Shown one piece after another: positions 29,906 to 62,079 of a DNA stretch of 64,000 bases. The DNA lies in NCBI GenBank assembly GCA_945868435.1, contig CAMBLG010000002.1, forward strand, positions 62,001-126,000, in the 5' to 3' direction. Source of the DNA: an uncultured Lachnospiraceae bacterium. Its GTDB lineage: Bacteria > Bacillota > Clostridia > Lachnospirales > Lachnospiraceae. The notes beneath the pieces were generated by a model. That model was not told where the DNA came from and ran no database searches. It worked only from the letters and a program-made list of their open reading frames with translations. Position 1 is the stretch's first letter. Every line of letters begins with the position of its first letter. Position numbers and translations under genes: made by a program.

Positions 29906-29940
29906 TAATCGAATCCTCCTATGATTTCATTTTCTGCCTT

Positions 29941-30244
29941 CGCGGGTCTCCCAGTCCATTTTCGTTTCAGAGACCCGCGCTGGCTTCTTGATCCGGCTTT
30001 TTCTTCTTGTTTCTTCTAATTCGCTCTGCTTACTCGGGTCTCTCAGAGCATTTTCGTCCCCAAGGCCCACGATTGCTTCTTGATCTGGCTTTTTCTTCTT
30101 GTTTTTTCTAATTCGCTCTGCTTACTCGGGTCTCTCAGAGCATTTTTACTTCCTAGACCCACGATGGCCCCTCGATTCGGCTTTTTCTTCTTTCTTTTTT
30201 CACTCTCTCGGGTCTCTCAGAACATTTTTGCTTCCTAGACCCAC
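29941..30244. repeat. GGGTCT/AGACCC hairpin array A (four units)
   Basis: Four units, each a stem of GGGTCT with AGACCC around a loop like CTCAGAACATTTTTGCTTCCT, start at 29944, 30036, 30128 and 30210, so they are spaced 92, 92 and 82 bases. The linkers between them are also similar (CTTCTTGATC, GGCTTTTTCTTCTT, ATTCGCTCTGCTTACT). The first unit has a 10-bp perfect stem (CGCGGGTCTC). The second has lost part of its right arm. A six-unit array of the same family is at 36338-36813. Confidence 0.85.
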
Positions 30245-30284
30245 GCTGACTTTTTGCTCCAGCTTTCTTACAAGGTAGGAACGA

Positions 30285-30401: not shown

Positions 30402-31688
30402 TTATACCGCAGACTCCGCTTCACCCTCTGCCACCGTTGCCTTCTCCTCGTTCAAGGTCTTGCTGAACATAATTGCAATGGTAACAAACACCGCGGCCAC
30501 ACCCGCAACGACAAACACCTTTGCCGTGCTGACATAGGCAACCAAACCGCTCACTATAAAGGATGTAACCGGCATTGCCGCCATCCCCAGCGCACAGGTA
30601 ATACTTCCGACTCTGGCGAGATACTCTTCCTTCACGCGCTTGACGATAAACACATTTCCAAAGGCGCTTGCCATTCCCGCCGCCATTCCAAGCACCAAAT
30701 CAATCACAACGGTGAATCCGTACATAAAAACTTTGCTTTTGTACAGCGGCATGCAGGCTGGCACAGTTATGTAATATGCAGCGATTGCCAATGCGCACAA
30801 CACCATAATCAGTTTTGGACTTAATTTCTTGCTTACCATAGGATAAATAAATGAGCCAAGCAGCATTCCCAGCGTCAGGGTTATACCAATGACAGACAGG
30901 ATTTCTGCGCCTCCGCCCAGAATCTCACTTGCCAACGGAGCCTGAAGGCTGTTCAGCGGAACCAGCGCCGCATTGAGGAACACTACAATTCCCAACAGGA
31001 AGAGGACAATCTTATCCTTTTTCACATAGGAAAAACCGTTACCAAGTGTCTGCAAATATTCCTTTCCGTCAAACTTGACCTTCTGCAGGTTCTGCTCTCT
31101 CGTATTTACGAACAGAATCACAAAGGCAGACAGGATAAAAGTCGCCATGTCCACATAGATCGCACCTGCGGTTCCAATCACCGCAATAATGCTTGCCGCA
31201 GCCGCCAGGCCTACAAGCTCTACAATAGAGCAAAGCGTAGACATCAAGGACATTCCATATTCGTAGTATTCCTTATCCAGAATCTTCGGTGTCAGAGCTG
31301 TATTCGCAGGCGTGCGGAACGCCTCTGCCGTTGAGATGGCAATCGTGACCACCAGAAGCATCCACGGTTGCAAAAATCCAAGCAGATAGCCGGTGGCCGT
31401 AAATGCAACACACAACGCGCGGATTAGATCCGTCACAATCATAATCGTCTTCTTTTTCCGTCCCTCAACCCAGGCACCTGCCAAAGGTGTTATAATCACA
31501 GACGGGACCCTGTTTGCGCCAAAAATAATCGCAGACCATGCCGCATTTCCGGTCAGTTCATACACGATCCACGTAAATGCAATGGCATCAATGGAATCGC
31601 CGAAGCGGTTGATCAGCGCTGCAAAAATCATTTTCAGGTATTCCTTCTGACGAAACACGTCCTTGTAACCAATTTTCTTTTCTTCCAT
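30402..31688 (-). CDS. Major facilitator superfamily transporter
   Basis: A 428-residue membrane protein with about twelve hydrophobic segments. It has an MFS-type loop 2-3 (GAWVEGRKKKTIMIVTDLIR) and the NRFGDSIDAIAFTWIVYELT opening typical of the MFS_3 exporter group. The substrate is unknown. AAAGGACATCAAA precedes the ATG. It follows the lipoprotein gene on the same strand by 67 bases. Confidence 0.85.
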   Translation of the reverse strand: MEEKKIGYKDVFRQKEYLKMIFAALINRFGDSIDAIAFTWIVYELTGNAAWSAIIFGANRVPSVIITPLAGAWVEGRKKKTIMIVTDLIRALCVAFTATGYLLGFLQPWMLLVVTIAISTAEAFRTPANTALTPKILDKEYYEYGMSLMSTLCSIVELVGLAAAASIIAVIGTAGAIYVDMATFILSAFVILFVNTREQNLQKVKFDGKEYLQTLGNGFSYVKKDKIVLFLLGIVVFLNAALVPLNSLQAPLASEILGGGAEILSVIGITLTLGMLLGSFIYPMVSKKLSPKLIMVLCALAIAAYYITVPACMPLYKSKVFMYGFTVVIDLVLGMAAGMASAFGNVFIVKRVKEEYLARVGSITCALGMAAMPVTSFIVSGLVAYVSTAKVFVVAGVAAVFVTIAIMFSKTLNEEKATVAEGEAESAV

Positions 31689-32794: not shown

Positions 32795-33606
32795 TTAAAA
32801 TGCATTTAATGCCTCGTATATCTGCTTTGAGAAATTTCGACGTTCTTCATAATTTTTCTTTGCTGGTCTTTCAATATAATCGAGGAACATATCTGACACA
32901 TCTTTATATGATGTTTTCGCAAGAACCTTTTTCCAATCAGATATTCTAGTTGAAGTTACTTCTTTTCTAATAGTTGCTAATTGTGCATTTACATCCGATA
33001 CATCCAACCCCATTTCTGTAGCTGTATCCTTTAGCGTTTTTTTCACAGACGCAACTGTCCATTGCTCTAATCCGTATCCAACTTGATCATCCACCTTGAA
33101 TTGATATCCACTATTATGATCCCCTGGGTACTTCCCATCTTGTGCATTATCCGATGCAAATTTTGATTCATTATACAAATTACCACAAATTCCCGCCGCT
33201 TGATTTGTGGTACAACCTAATCCAACTCTCAAAAAGCCCATGTTCTTGCAAAATTCTGTTTTTCCGTAGCATCTAAATTTAATTTAGAAGATGATGTCAA
33301 ATTAGTAAATTTTGAGCTTACGACTACATTACTTTTCATTGTGCTGGCAGCATCCAACTTACTTTGCGTAGAGCTATTCATAATACCGTTCGCCGTCAAG
33401 CCATATACTGTTTGAAAATTTGTTATGGCTTTTTTACACATATCTGACGTCAAATTACCGTCCATTGGGCCATTATAAAATCCCAATCCGGATAGTGCTG
33501 ATTGAATTTGTTGATTGTTAGATAAAGTTTTTACAGAAGCTCCTTCAACACTTACTACTGCATCTGCATTAACATTTGTTTTCTCATAAATAACCCCCTC
33601 TTCCAT
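32795..33606 (-). pseudogene. Peptidoglycan-binding plus lysozyme-like protein, split by a frameshift
   Basis: Two overlapping reading frames form one domain series. Residues ~28-75 of the first are a PG_binding_1 domain (QQIQSALSGLGFYNGPMDG, NGIMNSSTQSKLD). The second is a phage-tail-lysozyme-like domain (AAGICGNLYNESKF, VGYGLEQWTV). They join near 33235, where TGGGCTTTTTGAGAG has five Ts; six Ts would read continuously as NFARTWAFLRVGLG. No signal peptide is seen. The 5' end lacks a clear ribosome site, so the true start may also be lost. It is a recent pseudogene, a phase-variable gene or a sequencing error. Confidence 0.7.
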
Positions 33607-33722: not shown

Positions 33723-33870
33723 CTTTTCACGTTTCTTTCCTCAATCTAATCACATTCAACAGCAAATCGAATTACAAATTGGTAATTAAGACTTCCTCTT
33801 TAAGTGCATATCATATATATGTAAGTTTAAAATTATTTTACAAACATATCTGCGTAAAGAGAATATAAGT

Positions 33871-33916
33871 AAATGGAAACTTTTTTGTTTCCATTTATGT
33901 TAAACCGGCGTATAAT
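33871..33916 (+). promoter_or_regulatory. Promoter and palindromic operator of the two-HTH regulator gene
   Basis: The inverted repeat AAATGGAAA-N8-TTTCCATTT (33871-33896), followed by ATGTTAA, overlaps a promoter: TTTCCA (33888-33893), a 17-base spacer and TATAAT (33911-33916). Nearly the same sequence, one base shorter, occurs at 36078-36109 upstream of the convergent peptide gene and nowhere else that I noticed. The position over the -35 suggests binding of a repressor or autoregulator. Confidence 0.75.
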
Positions 33917-33950
33917 GAACATAAATATATTGTTACAAAGGAGAGCAAAC

Positions 33951-35858
33951 ATGAGTGTACGAAGTGCAGGGAAAACAATTCGCGAAGCCAGAATAAAAGC
34001 CGGTCTGTCACAGGAGAAATTGTCCGACGGCATCTGTTCCCTGCAGTCGCTCTCCCGTATTGAAAGCGAGTCGGCCGGAGTCAGCCCTTCGACTTTTCAG
34101 GCATTGATGGCCCGCGCCGGTGCTCCATGTGAAGTCTTCCCTGTCTTTGAAAACTGGAAAGATTTTGACTGCTTCTTTCACTTGAAACACGCTCGTTTTC
34201 ACTTGAATTCATGGCAGCTGGATACCGCCTATGAAGAGCTTAATCAGCTTGAAGCCAAAGAATGGAATCAAAATCGTTTCTACTATCAGGAGTGGCTCCT
34301 ACTTCACAGTATGCTGCAATTTCGCTCTGGTCAATGCAGTCATGCACAGAACTACGACACCTTACTGACTGCTCTGCATATATCAAGACCGACCATTGAT
34401 TTGTCAGACTTCCGCCATCTCCTATTATCCATCAACGAAATTGAATTGCTGATTTACGCTGCACAGGAATTGTTATACCTAAATCATCCGGATGAATGCC
34501 TCTCTATCTGCTCGCAGCTTCAGACTTACTTAAGCAACACGGAAATTGCCTTTTTGGAAAAAGATCATCTACTGGCAGAGCTTGCCGTCGTGTACTGTAA
34601 ATACTTAATTGCAAATAAAGAATACTCTGCCGCCAATCAACTGGCAGATACACACCGGCACCAAATGGTGTTAAACGGAGACGATACCTCTCTGCTAGAG
34701 CTCACCTTTCTAACCGGAGTCTCCTCCTATTATCTCGGAGATCCAGAAGCCGCTCTACTCCATTTTAAAGACGTATTTTATTCTGCCCATGCAATTCACA
34801 GTCCATATGCCACCATTAGCCGGAACTATGCCTGCACGAACTTAAATCTGGAGCTTCCCTCCAATCTGCTTGAGGTTCCGGATATCCCTTTGTGCTATTT
34901 TGAAACAAAAAAAATCACAGACATCTCTGCTTTCACAGATGGTGTCTATGACTATAATGCTTCCACTATTATTACAATTGGCAGTCTGATTCAGAAATTT
35001 CGTTTAGACAATAATGTCTCCCAGCAAATGCTTTGTCAGGGATTATGCAGTAAGTCAAAGCTCTCGAAAATCGAGAACGGAACATTGCAACCGGATGTGG
35101 CATTAGCTGAAGCCCTCTTGCAGCGCCTCGGCTTTTCTGAACGTGAATTCGTGTTTTGGGGCGATGCCAAGGAAGCAAAATTTCATGAACTAAAGTTTCG
35201 ATTAATGCATGATATATACTTATCTGCAGATGATAAGGCAGCATATATCGCTCAACTAAAGAAATTGATTACTCCAAAAGACACTCTTTATTACCAATTT
35301 TATCTTATCCAAGATGCAATACAATGCAAGACACCTAAGGATAAACTGCAAAAACTTCAAATGGCACTTGCTTGCACACTCCCCCATTTTAATATTGGGG
35401 AAATTGGGAACTTTCGGCTTTCTTGGGCAGAATTATCAATTTTAAACGGCATCGCTCACAGTTGCATATTATCAGGTGATTACCTTAAAACCATTAATTA
35501 CTGTAAGCATATACTTATATATCAGAAAGTTGCGAATCCTGATATAATATTTCAGTCTCACGCGTTTTCAATAACTCTGCGCACATTAGCTAGGAGTTTA
35601 TACCTGCAAGAACACCATAAAGAGCTTATTGACACTTTTTTAAGTTTTGATATAACTAGTCTAAACTATAACCTTCGAAATTGTGGTGAACTATTTTTTT
35701 TCTATGCACAATCGCTATGTGAATGTTCACAGTTCGATTGTGTTGACCTTTATGCAAAATATTCTTGTGCCGCCTATGATATAAGCGAGTTAAGTCCAAA
35801 TAGAACTATTTTAATCGAAAGTTTACAAACTGAAAATAACTTTCAAATCGAATACTAA
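33951..35858 (+). CDS. RRNPP-like transcription regulator with two HTH plus helical-repeat halves
   Basis: A 635-residue protein. Residues ~1-60 form an XRE-type HTH (IREARIKAGLSQEKLSDGIC, SLSRIESESAG), followed by ~270 residues of TPR-like helices. A second HTH of the same kind is at ~340-400 (IQKFRLDNNVSQQMLCQGLC, SKLSKIENGTLQP), followed by ~230 residues of further helices. The two HTHs share a G(I/L)CS...LS(K/R)IE pattern, so the protein looks like an internal duplication of an Rgg/PlcR-type unit. AAAGGAGAGCAAAC precedes the ATG at 33951. It converges on a 49-codon secreted peptide gene, the stop codons overlapping, and shares an operator with it. Peptide sensing is an inference from domain plan and context. 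Confidence 0.82.
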   Translation: MSVRSAGKTIREARIKAGLSQEKLSDGICSLQSLSRIESESAGVSPSTFQALMARAGAPCEVFPVFENWKDFDCFFHLKHARFHLNSWQLDTAYEELNQLEAKEWNQNRFYYQEWLLLHSMLQFRSGQCSHAQNYDTLLTALHISRPTIDLSDFRHLLLSINEIELLIYAAQELLYLNHPDECLSICSQLQTYLSNTEIAFLEKDHLLAELAVVYCKYLIANKEYSAANQLADTHRHQMVLNGDDTSLLELTFLTGVSSYYLGDPEAALLHFKDVFYSAHAIHSPYATISRNYACTNLNLELPSNLLEVPDIPLCYFETKKITDISAFTDGVYDYNASTIITIGSLIQKFRLDNNVSQQMLCQGLCSKSKLSKIENGTLQPDVALAEALLQRLGFSEREFVFWGDAKEAKFHELKFRLMHDIYLSADDKAAYIAQLKKLITPKDTLYYQFYLIQDAIQCKTPKDKLQKLQMALACTLPHFNIGEIGNFRLSWAELSILNGIAHSCILSGDYLKTINYCKHILIYQKVANPDIIFQSHAFSITLRTLARSLYLQEHHKELIDTFLSFDITSLNYNLRNCGELFFFYAQSLCECSQFDCVDLYAKYSCAAYDISELSPNRTILIESLQTENNFQIEY

Positions 35859-36004
35859 TTCATAAATCCTTGATCAATTGCAACGTCTGAATATGGTGCC
35901 ACTCCTGCATCAGAGGCACCATGCCCCATCCATCCAAACAAAAGACATGCTGCCATAACCATTGCTACTGCTTTTTTCATTTTAGTTAATAAATTCTTTT
36001 TCAT
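35855..36004 (-). CDS. Small secreted peptide, candidate pheromone precursor
   Basis: A 49-residue gene with a strong AAAGGAGAGAACATATT before the ATG. The N-terminus is a signal peptide: basic MKKNLLTKMKK, hydrophobic AVAMVMAACLLFGWMG, then HGASDA with possible signal-peptidase sites. The remainder is short, ending APYSDVAIDQGFMN. The only cysteine is within the hydrophobic core, so a lipoprotein is less likely. Its stop codon overlaps that of the convergent regulator gene, and the same palindrome found at the regulator promoter lies 74 bases upstream. Precursors of RRNPP pheromones have this size and plan. Export and processing are inferred. Confidence 0.72.
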   Translation of the reverse strand: MKKNLLTKMKKAVAMVMAACLLFGWMGHGASDAGVAPYSDVAIDQGFMN

Positions 36005-36077
36005 AATATGTTCTCTCCTTTGTATTTTTGATTACAGATGATATCTTACCGAATCATGTACAAAAAAGGAATGTCAT

Positions 36078-36109
36078 AAATGGAAATTTTTTGTTTCCAT
36101 TTATGTTAA
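36078..36109 (-). promoter_or_regulatory. Palindromic operator upstream of the peptide gene
   Basis: AAATGGAAA-N7-TTTCCATTT followed by ATGTTAA, the same as the site at 33871-33903 except for one missing base in the spacer. Relative to the gene it controls, it is in the opposite orientation. Between it and the ATG a possible TTGTAC -35 is visible but no good -10. Confidence 0.7.
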
Positions 36110-36112
36110 TAC

Positions 36113-36319
36113 TCTACGCACCAATACATTCTATGTTTCGGTAATCAGCTTTACAAAGGGAAGTTCCAACTCTTTCACGCCATCCAAGGAAACCTTTCCT
36201 CTGCTCCATAGTTCTCCATTATCATGCAGATCTTTGAGTTCTTTTCGATACTCCGTATAAATTTTTGCCCCTCCGGTTCTACATGCCTCTCAGCAACATT
36301 ACTGCCACATCCACAAACC
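36113..36319 (-). pseudogene. Decayed copy of the 31756-32541 lipoprotein gene
   Basis: Two segments match the intact gene at the DNA level. 36113-36183 matches the coding 3' end (for example TTTACAAAGGG and the CGCCATCCA junction), and 36184-36319 matches the 5' part (GAAACCTTTCCTCTGC, ATCATGCAG, CTTTTCGATA). About 500 bases between are missing, and the break falls at CATCCA, which is present at both edges of the missing part in the intact gene. The signal-peptide region is gone; hairpin array B begins just there. Confidence 0.8.
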
Positions 36320-36337
36320 TCCTGTTCCTTTCTCCCT

Positions 36338-36813
36338 CGGGTCTCTCAGTCCATTTTTGCTCCACAGACCCACGATCTGCTTTTTTCTTTTCACTTTTCC
36401 CAATTTTCTCTGCTTACTTGGGTCTCTCAGCGCATTTCTGCTCCCAAGACCCACGCTAGTTCCTTCATCTGCTCTTTCTGCTCTGGTTCCCGTTTCCATT
36501 CCTGCTTCCCTCGGGTCTCACAGATTATTTTTGCTTCCTAGACCCACGCTGGCCCCTTGATCCGGCTTTTTCTTCTTATCACTTTCGCTCCCTCGGGTCT
36601 CTCAGAACATTTTTGTTTCCTAGACCCACGCCGACCCCCTGAACTGCTTTTTTCTTTTCATTTTTCCAATTTTCTCTGCTCACTTGGGTCTCTCAGCACA
36701 TTTCTGCTCCCAAGACCCACGCTAGTTCCTTCATCTGCTCTTTCTGCTCTGGTTCCCGTTTCCATTCCTGCTTTCCTCGGGTCTCTCAGCACATTTCTGC
36801 TCCATAAACCCAC
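36338..36813. repeat. GGGTCT/AGACCC hairpin array B (six units)
   Basis: Units begin at 36339, 36420, 36513, 36595, 36686 and 36779. Each has GGGTCT, a loop like CTCAGCACATTTCTGCTCCC, and AGACCC; the last unit has AAACCC. There is a higher-order repeat: units 1-3 and 4-6 are copies offset by 256-266 bases, with long stretches identical (for example CTAGTTCCTTCATCTGCTCT). So the array grew by duplicating a block of three. It shares linkers and hairpins with array A. Confidence 0.85.
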
Positions 36814-36905
36814 GCCGGCTTCTTAATTCAGATAAAGTCCTTTGCCGGCTTCTGGTGTCCAACCGGCTTCCTCCTAACCTTTGATTTCTACTTCCTCACT
36901 ACGAA

Positions 36906-61895: not shown

Positions 61896-62079
61896 TGGGG
61901 TATCCTGCCATACTCTTTGGATTTACTGGCCGAACCCATTTTTCATTCCACTTCATGTTCTCTGACGCTGTCACACTCATCGGGTTTACTGACACCGCCA
62001 CCAAGGAGCAAATCACATTTGCGTATGCCTTCGGCATAGCGATTTGCGTAGGCAATGATTCCACTACGTGAAATCATTA
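61896..62079 (-). other. 184-bp spacer between rpoA and rplQ with two small hairpins
   Basis: Longer than is usual between these genes. It contains ATGCCTTCGGCAT and an imperfect palindrome AATGATTcCACTACGTGaAATCATT. A 67-codon frame beginning with GTG overlaps the rplQ start but lacks a ribosome site. I see no gene that can be supported. Confidence 0.4.

Follow-up and report, generated by a model that had tools for sequence, protein, structure and literature searches.

Introduction

In the PlcR/PapR system of the Bacillus cereus group, a receptor built of a helix-turn-helix (HTH) domain and tetratricopeptide repeats (TPR) is paired with a short exported peptide encoded nearby; papR lies downstream of its receptor gene, in the same direction, and the PlcR box is TATGNAAN4TTNCATA. 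A cassette of similar composition lies in the 64,000-nucleotide stretch of DNA analyzed here (the window; positions 62,001 to 126,000 of contig CAMBLG010000002.1, from an uncultured Lachnospiraceae bacterium), where a receptor gene converges on a gene for a 49-residue peptide. We conclude that this cassette is very probably an RRNPP-type switch for quorum sensing by peptide, with pherotypes. It shares with PlcR/PapR a palindromic box with ATGNAA-like half sites, but the centre of its palindrome is 5-6 bp wider and the PlcR box is not matched. Moreover, two receptor units are joined here in one chain, the host belongs to another bacterial class, and the peptide gene is convergent at all 10 close loci and overlaps the receptor gene in the window.

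In the agr and ComQXPA loci, a contiguous hypervariable stretch encodes both signal and sensor and sets the communication groups. The cassette resembles them in holding signal and sensor specificity in one such stretch, but agr and ComQXPA use membrane histidine kinases and modified peptides and belong to other protein families. Single-unit receptors, as opposed to the two fused units found here, characterize both the Rgg/SHP group III systems of streptococci and the TprA/PhrA system of the pneumococcus. The gene order resembles both of these: convergent peptide genes that overlap the regulator end, as the window's does by 4 nt, are known in Rgg group III (PMC13361665, available text), and tprA2 lies on the strand opposite to the Phr-like peptide gene phrA2, near lantibiotic genes (PMC5436883, available text). 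The original prediction knew of no description of the exact arrangement in this bacterial group. Convergence with overlap is therefore not new by itself, but neither the fused tandem receptor nor a block exchange of sensor and tail was found described in the accessible text of the literature searched, and no paper there combined RRNPP with Lachnospiraceae. In the portions of these sources that are available, Rgg/SHP systems also control radical-SAM ribosomally synthesized and post-translationally modified peptides (RiPPs), SHPs leave the cell via PptAB, not Sec (PMC10075063), and TprA, in a further difference from the present system, represses, with no mention of sensor-domain exchange (PMC5436883). 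A survey found RRNPPA receptors in several genera, of which a single one lies outside Bacilli (PMC9765709, available text). By default, the published detector takes receptors of 250-500 aa (PMC10075063, available text), so that tandem Clostridia receptors of 600 aa would fall outside that search.

The tandem receptor and its convergent peptide gene

The receptor gene (33951-35858, + strand) encodes 635 aa in two PlcR-like HTH-TPR units of about 300 aa each, fused in tandem. Pfam places the first HTH at residues 10-53 (33978-34109, HTH_3) and the second at residues 344-399 (34980-35147, HTH_31), with E-values of 3.3e-15 for HTH_3 and 1.1e-12 for HTH_31, each matching two stretches. The hypervariable C-terminal TPR sensor domain begins at residue ~409-418 (35177-35855), where identity drops between otherwise identical receptors. 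An alternative start at 33873 would fall within a palindrome; we took the start at 33951 because it has a ribosome site and gives a length matching most close relatives. The HTH plus TPR-like plan expected of RRNPP sensors stood for the two HTHs, but hidden Markov models of TPRs barely match (TPR_12, E 0.07), so the TPR assignment rests on the structure model. In this AlphaFold2 model (predicted local distance difference test score 92.7), a TPR superhelix is predicted C-terminal to the HTH, and the structural matches include PlcR, Rap, NprR, ComR and Rgg, with other TPR proteins close behind in score. PlcR is the top fold match and also, among the PDB sequences searched, the sole RRNPP sequence match of one receptor unit. 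Because two units are joined in one chain, the protein exceeds the detector's 250-500 aa range, which is a search rule and not a mechanism. The GC content within the window's receptor gene falls from 45% to 33% at codon 409; since the C part is GC-poorer at all 10 close loci, this break may be a property of the domain.

At four further loci (L068, L072, L073, L081), pairs of single-unit receptor genes overlap by 19-28 nt, with a convergent peptide gene after three of the four pairs. These pairs are the unfused counterpart of the tandem receptor.

The converging gene (35855-36004, - strand), a putative pheromone precursor gene, is preceded by the ribosome site AAAGGAGAG, and its 49 codons specify MKKNLLTKMKKAVAMVMAACLLFGWMGHGASDAGVAPYSDVAIDQGFMN; its stop codon shares 4 nt (CTAA) with that of the receptor gene. 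The overlapping stops and the ribosome site had all been called correctly in the original prediction. By simple hydropathy and charge rules, residues 1-37 (35894-36004, - strand) form a signal-peptide-like leader, which is conserved, whereas the tail YSDVAIDQGFMN, with its stop codon (35855-35893, - strand), is variable. At 49 aa and -4 nt, the gene falls within the propeptide rule of RRNPP_detector, which asks for a neighbouring propeptide 10-100 aa long that lies between -60 and +400 bp (PMC10075063, available text).

The association of the two genes is conserved. All 10 close loci, i.e. those with sequence beyond the regulator end (the window, L002-L006, L017, L113, L114 and L115; L007/L157 were dropped, the regulator being cut by a contig end), carry a convergent small open reading frame (ORF) for a putative secreted peptide, whose start is charged and whose short tail follows a hydrophobic stretch. 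It overlaps the regulator end by 4-6 nt at nine of them and lies 86 nt off at L017. An automatic screen for small, hydrophobic, convergent ORFs preceded by a ribosome-binding site beside the regulator passes 8 of the 10; the peptide ORFs of L002 and L115 fail it and were found by eye. Over 80 distinct regulators, the same screen gave a convergent peptide ORF at 41, against 3 of 138 control genes from the same loci, and more often at tandem regulators (29 of 42) than at single-unit ones (12 of 38). Within -10 to +30 nt of the stop codon, the counts are 31 of 80 for regulators and 0 of 138 for unrelated control genes, and the remaining three orientations combined yield 7 small-ORF instances. Co-occurrence in related genomes, proposed as a check on the prediction, is thus observed. 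The 39 of 80 wider-family regulators at which the filter gave no peptide gene, two of them the close loci resolved by eye, weigh against the quorum-sensing interpretation; regulators lacking a peptide partner had been named beforehand as evidence to the contrary, and this is seen in part, in the wider family, but at none of the 10 close loci.

Regulator matches are present in 15 of 62 genomes of the genus (E 1e-10), seven of which, the window's own included, have close homologues. A profile search at E 1e-12 detected the receptor in 44 of 397 genomes of the family and 6 of 391 of the class, again with the own genome counted, and a peptide-profile search of the protein collection gave 122 relatives. 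Commensals with the cassette include a strain of Roseburia inulinivorans (P0155). A scan of genome contigs with the single regulator protein found one locus; the peptide of one relative had no match in 31 genomes, and no relative was among 40 pattern stretches in viral contigs. One plasmid record and four phage records match the receptor partially, none covering 80% of it.

Exchange of the sensor domain and the peptide tail

Two other receptors, P0002 and P0003, are 99-100% identical to the window's over residues 1-400 but only 37-56% identical over the last TPR domain. In blocks of 40 residues, identity to P0002 is 98-100% up to residue 440 and 49-58% thereafter; for P0003, it is 98-100% up to residue 400 and then 26-62%. 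Among 120 receptors (7140 pairs), retrieved with search words from the first 500 residues in a collection clustered at 90% identity, 167 pairs are at least 88% identical over residues 1-400, the backbone; 96 of these have at most 65% identity over residues 430-635, and at least two sensor classes occur within 14 of the 15 backbone clusters that have two or more members, both counts being inflated because the clustering requires listed receptors with the same backbone to differ elsewhere. This inflation does not extend to the absence of reverse cases: at matched thresholds, a similar sensor domain on a different backbone was seen in 0 of 7140 pairs. In 11 pairs, the sensor domain is at least 8 points more alike than the backbone (e.g. 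93% against 82%), which would also be expected from exchange. The fitted identity break falls at residues 400-419, just past the second HTH, in 89 of the 96 pairs; these draw repeatedly on 56 receptors and so lack independence.

Quick trees of the sensor domain, made for 32 of the 120 receptors with groups named after the identities had been seen, rejected a single clade for two of five backbone groups (approximately unbiased test, p 1.6e-6 and 3.4e-5). The clades of two others were not rejected (p 0.31 and 0.11), nor was that of the window's group, which is split from the rest by a branch whose support is 28. Exchange of sensors between lineages is supported for some backbone groups and, for that of the window, we infer it.

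The peptides show the corresponding pattern. One leader type, assigned by a text pattern that misses a few more peptides, occurs in 86 of 120 listed peptide relatives and is joined to 56 different tails; the endings of the main classes are EVVNNDIQRTN, EVVIENEITN, EVVIENEM, ETVIDGVQWIA, VDMVEGVITKG and VDVIIGSDTKN. The peptide search favours shared leaders, so the constancy of the leader is partly ascertained, but the replacement of tails behind a near-identical leader is free of this bias. The window's own leader is joined to three tails, YSDVAIDQGFMN, YCNVATEVDKSN (P0205) and CFEVEITDKICSQ... (P0181), and the window type comprises three sensor classes. When 12 long peptides were compared with 121 receptors for antisense compatibility, P0181 could be written antisense to the receptor end for P0002 only, over 64 nt; given this overlap, P0002 and P0181 are most likely encoded by neighbouring genes. 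They have the backbone and leader of the window, and both variable parts differ from the window's. A second link, P0169-P0056, spans 33 nt; the other 10 long peptides had no compatible receptor among the 121, and shuffled tails (three per peptide, a quarter of the receptors) gave no link. By elimination only, P0205 would pair with P0003. In P0181, the stop comes about 20 codons later than usual, and the frame reaches into the receptor gene on the opposite strand. That the tail should vary in step with the regulator had been proposed as a further check, and tails do vary with the last domain, as judged from one firmly linked alternative pair together with the class counts.

Owing to the tail-to-tail gene order, the two specificity parts adjoin: sensor domain and pheromone tail occupy ~717 bp (35177-35893) of 32.9% GC. 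Lying back to back, both could be swapped by one recombination event, giving a new pherotype. On balance, we favour the view that this stretch of ~0.7 kb, read on both strands, is a modular pherotype cassette that strains swap as one block, through recombination in the second-HTH and leader sequences on either side of it, with one receptor unit keeping the DNA-binding frame while the other senses, so that an open-ended set of private channels over competition genes would arise.

A predicted operator with fixed promoter spacing

As originally predicted, near-identical palindromes lie outside both genes. The copy upstream of the receptor gene (33871-33896), AAATGGAAAC-TTTTTT-GTTTCCATTT, also faces a divergent lysozyme-like gene; that upstream of the pheromone gene (36078-36102) is one base shorter and has one mismatch. 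The core ATGGAAA-N4..12-TTTCCAT occurs exactly at only these two sites in the 2.57-Mb assembly (84% complete). Within three mismatches, the palindrome is found at the cassettes of genomes G006, G020, G061, G003, G026, G217 and G108, the last and G217 belonging to other genera, and each end of the G108 cassette has the window's regulator-side 26-mer as its reverse complement. The G023 cassette has a degenerate palindrome, G351 has one only before an M16 operon, and L017 has none.

At each of 17 gene-facing sites, a -10-like box lies 31-34 nt past the operator arm; this set excludes the regulator-facing sites and includes that of G061 with four mismatches, and the spacing was noticed first and tested later. 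Any other 4-nt window holds at most 5 boxes, and shuffles average 3.8 and never exceeded 10 in 2000. Two weaker matches were left out of the 17, G023 (four mismatches, with a pheromone-facing TATAAT at 33 nt) and G045 (no box at 31-34). In the window, the boxes are TAAGAT at 33 nt for the pheromone gene (36043-36048, - strand) and TAAAAT at 34 nt for the divergent gene (33835-33840, - strand). Such fixed spacing is the layout expected of an activator operator, which we predict the palindrome to be. The receptor gene itself has a promoter-like TTTCCA-17-TATAAT (33888-33916, + strand) whose -35 box is the right arm of the palindrome; a consensus scan found 11 promoter-like sites where 7.5 are expected, this being among the three that reach 10 of 12 matches. 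Only three of six regulator-facing sites have a box 18-20 nt away. At the receptor promoter, a second box, TATATT, 33 nt off would permit activation instead of autorepression.

When the two upstream regions of each locus were tested for a shared motif, 3 of the 34 scored pairs (a 35th was too short) were clear (L001, L114, L119), L109, L005, L098 and L061 were slightly above all 20 shuffles, and 27 were not above, including the close loci L003, L004, L006, L017 and L113. With this test mostly null, the operator claim rests on the core sequence as read and is confined to the close subfamily. On the minus strand, the consensus scan also marks both palindromes as resembling terminators; we rejected a terminator, as the core is common to several genera and several copies have no immediate T-run.

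At L146 (G010) and L150 (G047), a lone operator has ACATTACAT/ATGTAATGT outer arms and a -10-like box at the expected distance, and the receptor was not found in either genome. In G108, two copies (L141 4934-4959, L144 5071-5096) lie between convergent gene 3' ends, with no suitably spaced -10 box. Some paired operators share non-palindromic flanks in direct orientation (7 nt in the window, 20 nt at L145 6235 / 8520, 9 nt at L155 721 / 2945), a pattern that two convergent promoters would not lead one to expect. Perfect palindromes of great length, with arms of 20-33 bp, precede the peptide gene at L008, L015, L016, L073, L093, L100 and L117; they belong to single-unit and distant tandem systems and are unlike those of the close family.

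Candidate targets

The gene on the far side of the window's left operator, which faces it, encodes a peptidoglycan-binding and phage-lysozyme-type protein by Pfam (32795-33606, - strand). It is split over two overlapping reading frames, through a frameshift or an assembly error, where the operator would drive its expression. Another candidate target is an MFS exporter gene (30402-31688, - strand) with 43-64% identity to the MFS genes that adjoin the cassette of five relatives; we treat the two as separate candidates. In G108, one operator lies between the regulator and a divergent operon for an M16 peptidase, a 199-aa protein, two small precursor-like ORFs, a radical-SAM maturase and MFS and ABC exporters, and another precedes a second MFS gene. 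Further G108 sites, which look like mutual copies, have the expected -10 spacing in 3 of 5 cases. In G351, the operator precedes the same kind of operon, and in G217 it faces a radical-SAM and ABC pair. Radical-SAM genes, which score above the Pfam Radical_SAM cut-off and below the curated cut-offs of RiPP maturase families, are intact beside 3 of the 11 loci compared, with a fragment beside a fourth. The common theme of these targets may be competition with other bacteria. The original description of a self-contained unit stands as regards its own operators on both sides, but in relatives the operator also precedes radical-SAM peptide, export and wall-hydrolase genes.

One of the further G108 operators, at L143 (3-3623, - strand), precedes a gene whose secreted product combines peptidoglycan-binding, Rv2525c-like hydrolase and RHS-repeat parts, and parts of this protein recur at operator copies L140 and L142.

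Mechanism and alternative explanations

The gene order, its conservation, the recurrence of the operator, the -10 spacing and the exchange of domains and tails are established from sequence, and they are compatible with the following scheme. The 49-residue precursor would be exported via its signal sequence and cut to a short C-terminal pheromone, which, once imported, would bind to the tandem receptor at its C-terminal TPR domain. The single chain would supply both HTHs of a pseudo-dimer that binds the 25-26 bp palindrome. Bound receptor would then activate the pheromone gene, creating positive feedback, together with the neighbouring competition genes, which in relatives are a radical-SAM peptide operon and the genes for an M16 peptidase, exporters and wall-hydrolase-like proteins. 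The palindrome over the -35 box of the receptor gene would allow autoregulation, as if bound receptor limited its own expression. The steps of export, trimming, re-import, binding, activation and positive feedback we infer. The peptide-signalling switch put forward originally is in keeping with the RRNPP-like fold, the conserved convergent partner, the shared operator and tails that vary as the last receptor domain does.

An unlikely alternative is that the small gene encodes an effector, either a secreted bacteriocin or a type-I-toxin-like membrane peptide, with the regulator as repressor or immunity sensor and the overlapping transcripts providing antisense control. A short hydrophobic peptide convergent with an overlapping gene would fit such an arrangement, as would the export, lysozyme-like and RiPP-type genes nearby and the lack of a terminator between the two genes in the consensus scan. 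However, the receptor has a predicted TPR fold, and exactly that domain changes together with the peptide tail; a constant leader with a variable tail likewise speaks against an effector, and the operator precedes a separate radical-SAM operon that has precursor-like small ORFs of its own. Very unlikely is the possibility that the palindromes are not operators but the direct repeats at the two ends of a mobile cassette, at which it is integrated or excised. Their 11-6-11 geometry resembles that of Xer sites, the flanks of the two sites, read in the same direction, match over 7 nt in the window, 10+10 nt in G108 and 9 nt in G217, and solitary sites exist in genomes in which no receptor was detected; nonetheless, the box spacing is fixed at all 17 gene-facing sites, sites also lie upstream of M16 and MFS genes, the two-gene cassette has no integrase, G061 lacks a direct-repeat flank while that of G006 is ambiguous, and the plasmid and phage records all fall short of 80% of the receptor.

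Most receptor sequences come from metagenome catalogues and were analyzed outside their DNA context, so the sharp identity break might reflect chimeric assembly in place of real allele exchange. We consider this exceedingly improbable: the boundary is the same in the 14 of 15 backbone clusters (in part as the clustering leads one to expect), P0001, P0002 and P0003 represent 62, 11 and 16 member sequences, P0002 sits on a contig of 209,795 nt, the trees reject one sensor clade for two backbone groups, and P0181 changes in step with P0002.

Under the quorum-sensing interpretation, the cassette represents a candidate Lachnospiraceae system for which an operator and a regulon of antibacterial-type and export genes are predicted, and in which receptors and ligands form natural allele series. 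With ligand and sensor on a single recombining block, it allows the evolution of signal specificity to be tested, and it points to peptides by which competition genes in gut bacteria might be switched. Related strains appear to swap the signal-recognition part, which would define who communicates with whom.

Imperfect copies of a GGGTCTCTCAG-type repeat flank the cassette region in the window, at 29927-30278 and 36299-36826.
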